DNA of 64,000 nucleotides from Thermaerobacter sp. FW80 (GTDB lineage: Bacteria; Bacillota; Sulfobacillia; Thermaerobacterales; Thermaerobacteraceae). The notes below the pieces were generated by a model. That model made no database searches, was not told the origin of the DNA, and saw only the letters and a list, made by a program, of their open reading frames with translations. The first letter of the stretch is position 1. The number at the start of each line of letters is the position of its first letter. Below are positions 1,868-59,766 of this stretch, in pieces. Where the stretch lies: NCBI RefSeq assembly GCF_004634385.1, contig NZ_CP037895.1:1153245-1217244 (forward strand), read 5' to 3'. The position numbers were made by a program, and so were the translations under genes.

Positions 1868-1879
1868 GCCGGTTCGTCC
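1868..1879 (+). repeat. 12-bp dispersed word GCCGGTTCGTCC, copy 1
   Basis: Exact copy in the moaB-groES intergenic region, about 90 bp before the groES promoter and outside any gene. Confidence 0.8.
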
Positions 1880-1972
1880 GCACCGGCGTGCCGGCGCACG
1901 CGGCGCATAATCCGGCGCCGAGCGGGGCAGAAGCAATAGCGGCAAGCATGGGAGCGGCGGCCAATTCGGGGG

Positions 1973-2001
1973 TTGACGACCGTTTCTGGCCGCCTTACCA
2001 T
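1973..2001 (+). promoter_or_regulatory. Housekeeping promoter of groESL
   Basis: TTGACG at 1973-1978 and TACCAT at 1996-2001 are separated by 17 bp, a good sigma-A arrangement. The CIRCE operator starts 10 bp after the -10 box, so the predicted transcription start falls at or just before the operator. The rest of the 449-bp gap between moaB and groES is leader sequence with no further gene that I can see. Confidence 0.8.
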
Positions 2002-2011
2002 AGTCGATGGC

Positions 2012-2038
2012 TTAGCACTCTCCGACGGGGAGTGCTAA
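2012..2038 (+). promoter_or_regulatory. CIRCE operator (HrcA binding site)
   Basis: A perfect inverted repeat, TTAGCACTC then nine bases then GAGTGCTAA, matches the CIRCE consensus exactly. HrcA binds this element and represses groESL until heat stress. No hrcA gene lies in the window. Confidence 0.97.
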
Positions 2039-2208
2039 CAGGACAGGAGTCCCGCGGCTCGGGGGCTCGGGCCCGCCGGGCAGCGATCCTGCCAGATCCG
2101 ATCACGGCACCATTCGACCGCTGTGGCCGGGCGCCCCGGAGCCGAACCCTCAGCGCACCAGGGAGGTGGACGGCGGTGAGCGTTCAGCCGCAGCCCAAGG
2201 GAGGGACC

Positions 2209-2502
2209 GTGTCGGTGAAGCTGCGCCCTCTCGGCGACCGGGTGGTCGTCAAGGTGATCGAGGAGGAGGAGCGGACCAAGGGCGGGATCATCCTGCCGGA
2301 CACGGCCAAGGAGAAGCCGCAGCAGGGTGAGGTCCTGGCCGTGGGCACGGGCCGCATCCTCGAGAACGGCCAGAAGGTCCCCCTCGAGGTCAAGGAAGGC
2401 GACCGGGTGATCTTCTCCAAGTACGCCGGCACCGAGGTCAAGCTGGATGACGAGGAGCTGCTGATCCTCAGCGAGCGCGACATCCTGGCGGTCATCCAGT
2501 GA
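2209..2502 (+). CDS. groES: Co-chaperonin GroES (Hsp10)
   Basis: GroES forms the seven-membered lid of the GroEL folding chamber. The protein reads [19 protein letters not shown], then a mobile loop ([17 protein letters not shown]), then [34 protein letters not shown]. It has the usual length of 95-97 residues. Two close GTG starts (2209 and 2215) follow GGAGG at 2200-2204; I took 2209. An upstream GTG at 2176 with its own GGAGG would add eleven atypical residues and is less likely. The gene is controlled by the CIRCE element upstream and is followed 28 bp later by groEL. Confidence 0.97.
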
Positions 2503-2530
2503 GCGTTCGTGACCGAGGAGGGAAGGCGGC

Positions 2531-57289: not shown

Positions 57290-57484
57290 GGTCGGTCCGT
57301 GCCTCCGTGCGCTCGGCAGCCACCCACGGCGGTGCTCCCTGGCGGTCGATCCCAGCGCGGGTCCAGGGGCACCGCCGCCGCGGACGAACCCGCAACCGTC
57401 CACGCCATGCCCAGGTCGAGGTGCGGCCCGCGCCGACGGCGAGCGACCGAACGGCTCTGAAGGCGAAGGCCCGGACATGGCACC

Positions 57485-57515
57485 AAGGGGCACCGGCCGC
57501 TCACCGGTGCCCCTT
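57485..57515 (-). terminator. Likely terminator of the bc-complex operon
   Basis: A perfect 12-bp stem (57485-57496 with 57504-57515) with loop CCGCTCA lies 31 bp downstream of the cytochrome c stop on the minus strand. The T tract is weak. The 256-bp gap to the next minus-strand gene contains nothing else recognisable. Confidence 0.6.
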
Positions 57516-57545
57516 CGGACCGCGGCACCCCTGCTCTTGCGATCA

Positions 57546-58586
57546 TCACGAACCCCCGCCGGCGCCCCCGGCGTCGCCACCGCCGCCCTGCTCCGGGCCC
57601 TGGCTGCTCACGCCGGAGGGAGCGGGGAGCGATGCGGCGTTCCGCTTCTCCACGTCGCCAAGACCCATCAGGAAGCGGGCCAGCAGGCGGATCTGCTCCG
57701 GTGACATGGCGTCCTCGTAAGGGGGCATGATGCTGCGGAACTTGTCCTGCTCCTCCCGATAGGTCTCGGTCAGGTCCACCGGCGTGCCCTGCCCGTCCCA
57801 CACCGAGGGCATGCGCTCCCAGGGGGCGAAGTCCTGCGGGTTGGCGATCCACCGCTCGACGAACTCCTGGCTGGGGAGCCACTCGCCGGCCCGGGTCAGG
57901 TTGGGGCCCACGACCCCGCCGTAGCTGCCCAGGGTATGGCACTGGATGCAGTTCATCTCCACGAAGAGCTCCTTGGCCTGCTGGTTCTCCTCCTCCGTCA
58001 ACCCCTTGGCCTGGACGTCCAGGTCCTGGGCGGTGACGGGTCGGGTGCGCTGCTCCTGCGCGCCGGTGTCGGGATTCTGGACGTACTCGGTCACCGTCAG
58101 CCGCGCCACCTCGGGGGCGGCGGCGTGCTTGCTGGGCTCCTGCCAGTCGCCGTACATCAGGAAGGTGACCAGGTCGCGGATCTGCTGCTCGTTGAGCGGG
58201 CCGTTGTCGGCGGTGGACCACGCCGGCATCCGGGTGTAGGAGTGGATCTTGCCGTCCTCCACCAACCAGGTATGGCTGTCGAACCCCGGGCGGCCCCGGG
58301 CGATGGTCTTGGTCAGCGAGTCCTGGATGGTGGCGACCTGCACCGGCGGCTTGCCCTCCGCCCGGAACGCGTCCCGGTTCAACGGCGGCCCGATGATGCC
58401 CTCGCCGACGGGTCCGTGGCAGACCATGCAGTTCTGGGCGTAGAGCTGGGCGCCCCGGGCGGCCTGTTCCTCCCGCGCGGCTTCGGCTGCCCCGGACATC
58501 CGCTGGCCCTCGAAGAGCCAGTAGCCCTGCAGGATCAGGATCAGGGCCCAGAGCAGGCTGAGGGCGACCACTTTCCGCTTGCTCAA
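57546..58586 (-). CDS. Membrane-anchored diheme cytochrome c of the menaquinol oxidase chain
   Basis: Electron carrier with an N-terminal anchor helix (KVVALSLLWALILILQGYWLF) and two c-type haem domains: CMVCH in GAQLYAQNCMVCHGPVGEG, and CIQCH in LFVEMNCIQCHTLGSYGGVVGPNL. Candidate Met ligands are in SYTRMPAW and SIMPPYEDAMSP. The tail is Gly-rich. TTG at 58586 follows AAAGGAG and gives 346 residues. In Bacillus QcrC one cytochrome c domain is fused to subunit IV; here a separate diheme protein is encoded last in the operon. It probably accepts electrons from the Rieske protein and passes them to a terminal oxidase. Confidence 0.9.
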   Translation of the reverse strand: MSKRKVVALSLLWALILILQGYWLFEGQRMSGAAEAAREEQAARGAQLYAQNCMVCHGPVGEGIIGPPLNRDAFRAEGKPPVQVATIQDSLTKTIARGRPGFDSHTWLVEDGKIHSYTRMPAWSTADNGPLNEQQIRDLVTFLMYGDWQEPSKHAAAPEVARLTVTEYVQNPDTGAQEQRTRPVTAQDLDVQAKGLTEEENQQAKELFVEMNCIQCHTLGSYGGVVGPNLTRAGEWLPSQEFVERWIANPQDFAPWERMPSVWDGQGTPVDLTETYREEQDKFRSIMPPYEDAMSPEQIRLLARFLMGLGDVEKRNAASLPAPSGVSSQGPEQGGGGDAGGAGGGS

Positions 58587-58624
58587 GGCTGCGACTCCTT
58601 TCCGCGTGGGTGCGTGGGCGGCCT

Positions 58625-58753
58625 TCACTCGTCCTCGCCCGACGTCTCCAGCGGGCGGCCGGTGAACCGCTCCACGGTATCGACCGCCCAGAGGCAGAGG
58701 AAGATCGTGATCGCCACGGCGAGAAGCTCCACGGACTCGAGGACCTCGAACAC
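58625..58753 (-). CDS. 42-residue single-helix membrane peptide in the bc-complex operon
   Basis: GTG at 58753 is preceded by AGGAGGAGGTGAG, one of the strongest ribosome sites here. The peptide begins MFEVLESVELLAVAITIFL. One membrane helix covers about residues 8-24 (ELLAVAITIFLCLWAV), and the tail DTVERFTGRPLETSGEDE is polar and acidic. It lies between the Rieske and cytochrome c genes with short gaps on both sides. It may be a small accessory subunit of the complex, comparable to the tiny Pet subunits of cytochrome b6f, though I see no sequence match. No assigned family. Confidence 0.65.
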   Translation of the reverse strand: MFEVLESVELLAVAITIFLCLWAVDTVERFTGRPLETSGEDE

Positions 58754-58803
58754 GGCGGCTCACCTCCTCCTGGCCAGGGCGTCGCCGCCGAAGACGCGGG
58801 GCA

Positions 58804-59766
58804 TCACGCCCGCGGCACCGGCGTCAGCTGGTCGGGGCTGAAGGCCGTGCGCTGCTGGACGCGGCCGGTATCCACCCACACGTTGCCCGCCTCGTCGATC
58901 TCGATGGGGAAGTAGTCCATCGGCCGCGGCGCGGGGCCGCCGATCTTCTCGCCCACCTTATTGAACTGGGAGCCGTGGCAGGGACAGCAGAAGCAGCCGC
59001 CGGCGTCCGGCCGCTCCTCCGGCTTCCACGGCACCGTGCAGCCCAGATGGGTGCAGCGCCAGTATAGGGCGATCATGCCCTCCTCGACGTGGACCAGGTA
59101 GAACTTGCCCGCGTCGATCTTGGTCACGGACCCCACCGGGAAGTTGGACGCCGGCCCGATGTTGATCTTCTGGCCGAAGAAGCCCACCTTCCGCGGCCAG
59201 AAGTAGTTGGCGAAGCTGCCGGCGAACAGCCCCAGCCACAGCAACGCCGACCCCCACAGCGCCCAGTGGAGGAAGTCGCGGCGCGTCACCGGTTCGTCCC
59301 GCCGGGCCGCTGCGCCGTGGCCGCCGGCTCGCGCCGCGGGTCGCGCAACGCCCCCTGCCGCCGTCGCGGCCGCCCCGCCACCGGCACCGCCGCCCGCAGC
59401 CTTGGCCGCAGCCGCCCGCGCGGCCGCCGCCTTGGCCGCGGCCAGCTTCTCGGGGTCGACCTTCGACGGGGTGCCCGCGCCGCGATGGCCCTGCGGACCC
59501 GCGGCGCCGGCGGCTGCAGGCCCGGTGCCCCCCGCCGGCGACCCGGCGGCCTGGCGGCCCCCGACGGACGGTGCGGCCGCCGCCGGCCGTTCCGCCCCCG
59601 ACCCCGCGCCGCCGGCCGACTCCGCGCCACCGGCCGCCTCCGCGCCGCCGGAGCGGCCGGCCGAGCCCGCCGGGGCCTCACCGGCAGGCCGTGCATCCTT
59701 GGTATCAGGCTGTCCCGCGCCGGCTCCGCCTTCCGACTCGGGACCCCGTTCCCGATCGTCGGCCAT
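58804..59766 (-). CDS. qcrA: Rieske iron-sulfur subunit of menaquinol:cytochrome c reductase
   Basis: 2Fe-2S protein that transfers electrons from menaquinol to cytochrome c. The core begins TRRDFLHWALWGSALLWLGLFAGSFANYFWP (twin-arginine-like RR and anchor helix). The cluster motifs are WRCTHLGCTVPW and CFCCPCHGSQF, with both His ligands. The first 155 or so residues are a Gly/Ala/Pro-rich, low-complexity stretch (GGAESAGGAGSGAERPA, then KLAAAKAAAARAAAAKAAGGG). This stretch is absent in usual QcrA proteins of about 165-200 residues. ATG at 59766 gives 320 residues; an internal start near the core would give a normal protein but has no obvious ribosome site. Confidence 0.93.
   Translation of the reverse strand: MADDRERGPESEGGAGAGQPDTKDARPAGEAPAGSAGRSGGAEAAGGAESAGGAGSGAERPAAAAPSVGGRQAAGSPAGGTGPAAAGAAGPQGHRGAGTPSKVDPEKLAAAKAAAARAAAAKAAGGGAGGGAAATAAGGVARPAARAGGHGAAARRDEPVTRRDFLHWALWGSALLWLGLFAGSFANYFWPRKVGFFGQKINIGPASNFPVGSVTKIDAGKFYLVHVEEGMIALYWRCTHLGCTVPWKPEERPDAGGCFCCPCHGSQFNKVGEKIGGPAPRPMDYFPIEIDEAGNVWVDTGRVQQRTAFSPDQLTPVPRA
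59288..59299 (+). repeat. 12-bp dispersed word, copy 16 (one change)
   Basis: ACCGGTTCGTCC, first base A instead of G. It lies at the border between the low-complexity N-terminus and the anchor helix of qcrA, read on the minus strand as D-E-P-V. Confidence 0.7.

Follow-up and report, generated by a model that had tools for sequence, protein, structure and literature searches.

The 64,000-nt stretch of Thermaerobacter sp. FW80 analysed here (hereafter, the window; positions 1,153,245 to 1,217,244 of a 2.95-Mb contig) carries many copies of a non-palindromic 12-bp word, GCCGGTTCGTCC, which is probably a DNA uptake sequence (DUS) of the genus Thermaerobacter, often with a preceding G and of independent origin. 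The word is real, genus-wide and strongly selected or driven. The genome of this strain (G000; 3,039,102 bases in three contigs) holds 525 exact copies, 258 forward and 267 reverse, at a density of 173 per Mb or one per 5.8 kb, and the reversed word, taken as a control, occurs 0 and 3 times by strand. We compared G000 with three congeners (G001, G002 and G003) and with a member of another genus of the same family (G004).

The word in the window and in the genome

All 15 exact copies listed in the original prediction were recovered with the same starts and strands, and the copy with a changed first base at 59288 is present as ACCGGTTCGTCC. The predicted total of 16 was too low, as six more one-mismatch sites bring it to 22 sites with at most one mismatch (15 exact and 7 one-mismatch). 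Dinucleotide shuffles of the window (n = 100) had a mean of 1.16 such sites and a maximum of 4. The sites are as follows.

1868..1879, plus strand: exact copy, intergenic
4257..4268, minus strand: exact copy, intergenic, between a groEL-like gene and guaA
6297..6308, minus strand: exact copy, 10 bp past guaA
8418..8429, plus strand: exact copy, in a gene best matching sensor histidine kinases
10983..10994, plus strand: exact copy, in pcrA
12295..12306, minus strand: exact copy, in pcrA, just beyond the main profile match
13276..13287, plus strand: exact copy, in ligA
26279..26290, plus strand: exact copy, intergenic
31321..31332, plus strand: exact copy, intergenic
33295..33306, plus strand: exact copy, in the N-terminal extension of gatB
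36704..36715, minus strand: exact copy, in an RND-transporter-like gene
37128..37139, plus strand: exact copy, in the same RND-transporter-like gene
41122..41133, plus strand: exact copy, intergenic
42926..42937, minus strand: exact copy, in the final codons of a substrate-binding-protein-like gene
50868..50879, plus strand: exact copy, in nuoL
531..542, minus strand: one-mismatch copy GCCGGTTCCTCC
5025..5036, plus strand: one-mismatch copy GCCGGGTCGTCC
38054..38065, minus strand: one-mismatch copy GCCGGTTCGACC
39654..39665, plus strand: one-mismatch copy GCCGGTTCTTCC
44780..44791, minus strand: one-mismatch copy GCCGGTTCCTCC
57382..57393, minus strand: one-mismatch copy GCGGGTTCGTCC
59288..59299, plus strand: one-mismatch copy ACCGGTTCGTCC

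The gene before guaA is presumably groEL-like, judging from the start of its protein. Because the genome holds 525 exact copies, the window is ordinary for its genome in this respect.

Codon use and composition were evaluated in a 464-kb sample of G000, made up of the window plus 20 stretches of 20 kb taken at intervals of about 150 kb; genes were called by a purpose-written script, and the gene-based numbers are approximate. The sample has 89 exact copies, 71 of them coding. Synonymous-codon shuffles of all called genes (358 kb, 200 trials) gave 3.0 copies on average and never more than 9, against the 71 observed, in agreement with the predicted excess over codon expectation. The coding copies are read as DEP (35), RFV (15) or AGSS (14), with 7 in the other three frames, and these peptides are encoded by the codons of the word far more often than codon use predicts: DEP[AG] in 37/45 cases (about 5.5% predicted), AGSS in 14/20 (0.4%) and RFV in 28/47 (17%). 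The flanks of the 89 sites have a G at -1 in 70% and otherwise no shared sequence, which also bears out the expectation that the word is not part of a spreading repeat with longer flanks. The -1 G was found at 77/117 sites when a few stretches of G000 were added, and the preference is weak in the congeners (7/13, 11/20 and 9/17). A REP- or MITE-type repeat (repetitive extragenic palindrome or miniature inverted-repeat transposable element) was rejected, given that there is no longer unit and the copies are not mainly intergenic.

It is thus vanishingly improbable that codon or oligonucleotide preferences, or the spread of a short repeat, produced the word as a by-product. Both the window (72%) and the word (75%) are high in GC, and an order-5 Markov model, for which the training sample still contained the copies, yields 6 of the 89. 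The idea is refuted by the copy counts: synonymous shuffles give 3 rather than 71, the reversed word of equal composition has 3 copies in the whole genome, and the flank composition of the G000 sites shows no longer shared sequence.

The six intergenic copies claimed among the 15 in the window were confirmed by independent gene calls. The enrichment that they had suggested is not general, as 18 of the 89 sampled copies lie outside called genes, matching the 22.6% of uncalled bases (464 kb, p = 0.74); an intergenic or regulatory site was ruled out on the same count. Within genes, 41 copies are opposite to and 30 in the same orientation as the gene (n = 71; no significance test applied). The suggestion that coding copies occupy permissive sites held for the three genes checked. 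The 12295 copy covers residues 647-651 of PcrA, right after the best-matched stretch of the PcrA profile (4-641), the gatB copy (33295) covers residues 53-56, ahead of a family match that starts at residue 67, and the binding-protein copy (42926) lies at residues 587-591 of 597.

Copies are spaced near randomly. The first 1.16 Mb of G000 has 199 copies with a mean gap of 5.8 kb and a coefficient of variation of 1.28, and the gaps fit random placement (Kolmogorov-Smirnov p = 0.32, the mean being taken from the same data), which rules out regular spacing. The GC skew of the sampled stretches flips sign at 0.78-0.91 Mb and 2.13-2.26 Mb. On the three arcs thus defined and sampled, the strand counts were 10/11, 23/25 and 8/12, with no replication-strand bias, and no origin- or terminus-linked density trend is visible in the sampled stretches. 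Inverted pairs within 25 bp number 3, 0, 2 and 0 in G000-G003, where we estimate about 0.6 expected in G000; one pair in G000 forms a perfect 24-bp palindrome between convergent genes. A terminator role was considered and, with so few pairs, not adopted.

The bases of the word differ in how much they vary. In a four-species set of stretches (752 kb, with 8 kb of overlap counted twice), the 143 exact copies and their one-mismatch neighbours have no variants at positions 8 and 11 and only 3 at position 5, and position 9 is the most variable (44 variants: C 25, T 17, A 2). Such a pattern is like that of a recognition site in which some bases are essential and others tolerate change. Inner bases of the neisserial DUS have been reported as essential and peripheral ones as less so (PMC3868556).

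Distribution among genomes, conservation and absence from plasmid-like DNA

The word is a signature of one genus, Thermaerobacter. Exact copies number 525, 274, 429 and 280 in G000-G003, respectively, and one-mismatch copies 657, 681, 735 and 688 (controls 87, 101, 103 and 79); it is the most enriched 12-mer in the stretches of the three congeners. Among 61 related genomes, G004 has 33 exact copies (control 6) besides the Thermaerobacter four, and the remaining 56 have at most 7 each. In a draw of 398 genomes from the phylum, a set that overlaps the 61 relatives, the Thermaerobacter four are again prominent, with no more than 7 copies in any of the other 394. One-mismatch copies number 228 in G004 (control 57), and 35 and 55 in G005 and G006 (controls 58 and 57).

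G004 may carry a weaker or decaying form of the word system. Its genome is fragmented (580 contigs, 91% complete), and we studied 320 kb of it in 48 contigs. All 20 copies seen there come from 19 contigs that had been picked for carrying the word. The remaining 29 (157 kb, including runs of N), of which 8 were picked from similarity matches and one for a T2SSE match, have 0 copies against about 2 expected. An own dialect in G004 was dismissed, since the same word is present at low density and no other 12-mer in the 320 kb is equally prominent. Thirty word loci of G004 were compared with no more than roughly a quarter of the G000 sequence. Nine of them aligned at the word, and 2 of these are exact at the same place in G000 and 7 are not.

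Between species, the word is retained at alignable sites more often than 12-mers nearby, and there is turnover at other sites. For the window, the corresponding regions of G001-G003 were aligned, at 85-86% identity to G000. The 8418 copy is 12/12 in all four species despite flanks of 68-70% identity, as are the 10983 (pcrA) and 13276 (ligA) copies. The 12295 copy is exact in G002 and has three changes in G001 and G003, the 31321 site reads GCCGGTTCCTCC in all three congeners, the nuoL copy (50868) has one mismatch in each of them, and the gatB copy (33295) is lost in G002. Many intergenic copies could not be aligned between G000 and the congeners.

For a quantitative comparison, ungapped sites of the window and the pilus regions were set against a baseline of 12-mers within 150 bp; gapped or unaligned sites, including some degraded copies, were excluded. 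From G000 to the congeners, 17 of the 35 usable comparisons were exact against 7.9 expected, where the usable ones comprise 24/45 in the window region and 11/18 in the pilus region and one site may count up to three times. From the congeners to G000, 17/17 were exact against 4.1 expected; the two directions share the same 17 exact pairs and are not independent, and congener words absent from G000 fell in gapped or unaligned places. Among the congeners, exact matches in the window and the pilus region, with expectations in the same order, were 8/8 and 3/4 from G001 to G003 (4.9 and 2.1), 4/5 and 3/4 from G001 to G002 (1.0 and 1.9), 8/9 and 3/4 from G003 to G001 (5.2 and 1.7), and 4/6 and 3/3 from G002 to G001 (1.6 and 1.6).

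The two smaller, plasmid-like contigs of G000 have zero copies of the word. One of them, C2 (77,620 bases), encodes ParB and ParA-type proteins by Pfam, together with transposase- and integrase-like genes, many of them transposase-like, that were named by their protein starts. Parts of its first 600 bases and several genes recur about 51.7 kb later, and its unique part may thus be about 51.7 kb, for which about 9.2 copies would be expected at the chromosomal density (probability of zero about 0.0001). The other, C3 (8,456 bases), encodes a replication protein of the Prim-Pol/D5 type. The start of a 136-aa gene is present twice in C3 (20-430 and 6906-7316), and the contig is perhaps a small circular element.

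On the chromosome, word-free gaps of 64 and 49 kb are transposase-rich in the parts read, and a third of 35 kb has mostly ordinary genes and at least two transposases. The 34 multicopy genes (37 kb) have 0 copies and the 517 others (525 kb) have 91, in a count that includes some stretches chosen for lacking the word, takes one 8-kb stretch twice and rests on copies that are not independent of each other. Words are also scarce in 5-kb bins of the chromosome below 69% GC (2 in 55 kb).

Pilus and competence genes and the proposed function

A run of genes in G000, the one genome whose pilus locus was given a full Pfam run, holds type IV pilus (T4P) genes. Pfam matches identify PilT- and PilB-type ATPases (T2SSE; PilB with MshEN), a prepilin peptidase (PilD), PilC (T2SSF), an N-methyl prepilin and PilN. 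For a PilM-like gene the sole match, to FtsA, is weak and under the cut-off, PilO was named by position alone, and two further pilin-like genes and one larger gene have no Pfam match. G001-G003 have similarly built loci based on gene calls, prepilin matches and T2SSE matches, and the pilT-pilC part carries 3 copies of the word in each of the four species. ComEC is encoded in all four Thermaerobacter genomes and in six of nine other genomes, and a ComEA-type protein (SLBB and HHH_3) adjoins it in G000 and G002, the two examined. DprA was detected in all nine genomes tested, including the four of Thermaerobacter. ComEC and DprA alone therefore make no genus distinction. PF07963 prepilins were not found in G004-G006, nor was ComEC in G004, where the fragmented assembly may be the cause of both misses. 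A loss of both pilus and ComEC in G004 was considered and dropped, as a PilB-type match sits on a word-bearing contig.

The pilin-pilMNO cassette has at least three divergent forms in the four species (pilus loci L084-L087), and its identities conflict with the species relations in the window region, pointing to exchange between species. G001 and G003 are 95.7% identical in the window region and align in the cassette over 1.4 kb only, at 69.8%; G001 and G002 are 86.5% identical in the window region and 95.4% over the full length of the cassette. Homologous recombination is the most likely way in which it came to be exchanged, and such exchange would be expected of a transformable genus. Transfer by conjugation or phages could have the same effect, and word-guided transformation may carry the cassette itself from one species to another.

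Of the four options originally offered (uptake, Chi-like, chromosome-organising and methylation), uptake is favoured and the others are less likely. In general, the word is balanced between strands on the sampled arcs, has no palindrome and lies in both coding and intergenic DNA; it is conserved with turnover and absent from plasmid-like contigs and multicopy genes; and T4P, ComEC and DprA genes are present in all four species, and for these reasons we favour a DUS. The machinery would then work in DNA uptake and read GCCGGTTCGTCC. A receptor, either a pilin or another part of the T4P and competence machinery, would bind double-stranded DNA carrying the word, ComEA and ComEC would bring in one strand, and DprA and RecA would integrate it by recombination. 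With DNA that carries the word taken up and recombined preferentially, copies would accumulate and be renewed in the chromosome through molecular drive, selection, or both, and plasmids, transposons and foreign DNA would stay unmarked. The pilin cassettes differ strongly between species that share one word, so the receptor would as likely lie outside the cassette or be a surface conserved in one of the pilins.

Several observations weigh against a DUS. The pilin genes were located and no receptor for the word was identified among them, and one encoded in the cassette would need an unchanged specificity despite the wide divergence of the cassettes between species. G004 combines a low word density and a PilB match with no ComEC or prepilin match, which fits decay and equally fits no link between word and machinery. 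Low GC confounds the absence of the word from the plasmid-like contigs, such that composition and foreign origin are unseparated, and the overlap of the two conservation comparisons with G000 reduces their force. Inverted pairs are few, and 525 copies in 3.0 Mb is a lower density than that of the about 1,900 10-mers in Neisseria meningitidis. Among the open-licence papers listed, we found no uptake or transformation data for Thermaerobacter. Competent Gram-positive bacteria are not known to need such a word.

Other functions would also account for parts of this distribution. Chi sites of RecBCD/AddAB are short and frequent and mark the chromosome as self, and a Chi-like word would let AddAB, or a different recombination nuclease, recognise a DNA end as chromosomal and start repair. 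One copy per 5.8 kb and the absence from plasmid-like contigs suit such a self mark. Chi sites are, however, shorter than 12 bp (5-8 bp) and biased to one replication strand, unlike the word with its 10/11, 23/25 and 8/12 on the three arcs, and we consider this function unlikely. The balanced strands speak equally against a polar site of the FtsK-orienting type (KOPS), which was rejected for showing no orientation toward the terminus on the arcs sampled. Dispersal over the chromosome and absence from plasmid-like contigs would also be expected for the binding site of a chromosome-organising or segregation protein. Such a site is doubtful here, because the word has no palindrome and no polarity, its density in the sampled stretches shows no bias to the origin or terminus, and most copies lie within genes; sites of the ParB, Noc or MatP type were rejected for the lack of a palindrome and of origin- or terminus-linked density. 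Its presence on the chromosome, with no copies in multicopy genes or plasmid-like contigs, would fit a restriction, modification or other defence system that selects the word as a recognition or protection site marking self. This is very improbable, as restriction normally brings avoidance rather than enrichment and a contiguous 12-bp site is unusually long.

A comparison can also be made with HIP1 of cyanobacteria, an 8-bp palindrome that is enriched genome-wide in coding DNA and limited to one group. Both are enriched short words in the coding DNA of one group; GCCGGTTCGTCC is 12 bp long and non-palindromic.

The DUS of Neisseriaceae (the 12-mer ATGCCGTCTGAA and its dialects) has the same length as GCCGGTTCGTCC, likewise lacks a genomic orientation bias, and occurs in coding and intergenic DNA of a host with T4P (PMC3630211, PMC2397512, PMC2346458). 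In Neisseria it is also described as better conserved than its flanks, placed in the core genome and absent from recent acquisitions, as is the word here, and as occupying permissive sites within genes (PMC2397512). Van Passel reported that DUS have no general orientation bias genome-wide and that, within genes, one orientation is in excess (PMC2346458). Mobile elements have been detected by atypical DUS density (Hughes-Games et al., PMC7371117), and up to 37% of terminators are reported to contain DUS in some Neisseriaceae (PMC13020248). Unlike DUS, GCCGGTTCGTCC has unrelated letters, belongs to another phylum and forms few inverted pairs, with no ComP known. Frye et al. give dialects and counts of DUS, and the dialects share a conserved CTG core (PMC3630211); GCCGGTTCGTCC was rejected as a neisserial dialect because it has neither CTG nor CAG. 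The uptake signal sequence of Pasteurellaceae (AAGTGCGGT) follows the same distribution logic with T4P-linked uptake (PMC12616744); its letters are unrelated, its core is 9 bp and its host is gammaproteobacterial.

With somewhat less assurance than for the DUS itself, we think it fairly likely that Thermaerobacter evolved sequence-specific self-recognition for transformation independently of Neisseriaceae and Pasteurellaceae. This would be the first case in Bacillota, and it may also be the first for a bacterium with a single membrane, as Thermaerobacter presumably is. If so, uptake words would not be tied to crossing an outer membrane, and the genus would offer a test of whether an outer membrane is needed, a fresh system for separating molecular drive from selection, and a practical tag for its own transformation. 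According to a 2025 paper, no families other than Neisseriaceae and Pasteurellaceae are known to discriminate their own DNA by short enriched words at uptake (PMC12616744). None of the open-licence papers listed reported GCCGGTTCGTCC, or any uptake word for Thermaerobacter or for Gram-positive bacteria, which is weak evidence that no such report exists. A third, unrelated origin in a thermophilic genus of Bacillota would show that such words arise repeatedly, and the same scan for strand-balanced, genus-bound 12-mers beside a pilus operon could reveal further cases.

Other features of the sequences

Window positions 15387-23824 have a lower GC, ABC-transporter-like genes and no exact GCCGGTTCGTCC, and these genes have many related copies in the congeners. 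Two multicopy genes of the window (24855-26123 and 62260-63528) encode proteins starting MKV[LI]QAYRFALDPTPRQ, with further copies in loci L038, L257 and L261; they are probably TnpB-type. A mutator-family transposase (MSRIPPSQQLAELARQLA...) was sighted about a dozen times with the same start (L049, L206, L207, L209, L210, L212, L215, L259 and L261-L264), perhaps reflecting a recent burst. A CRISPR-like array region lies at L049:7343-19975, and its 12.6 kb contain a repeat end, GAGGATTGAAAC, 102 times. At window positions 56224-56243 there are 20 consecutive C, possibly a phase-variable tract or a weakness of the assembly.

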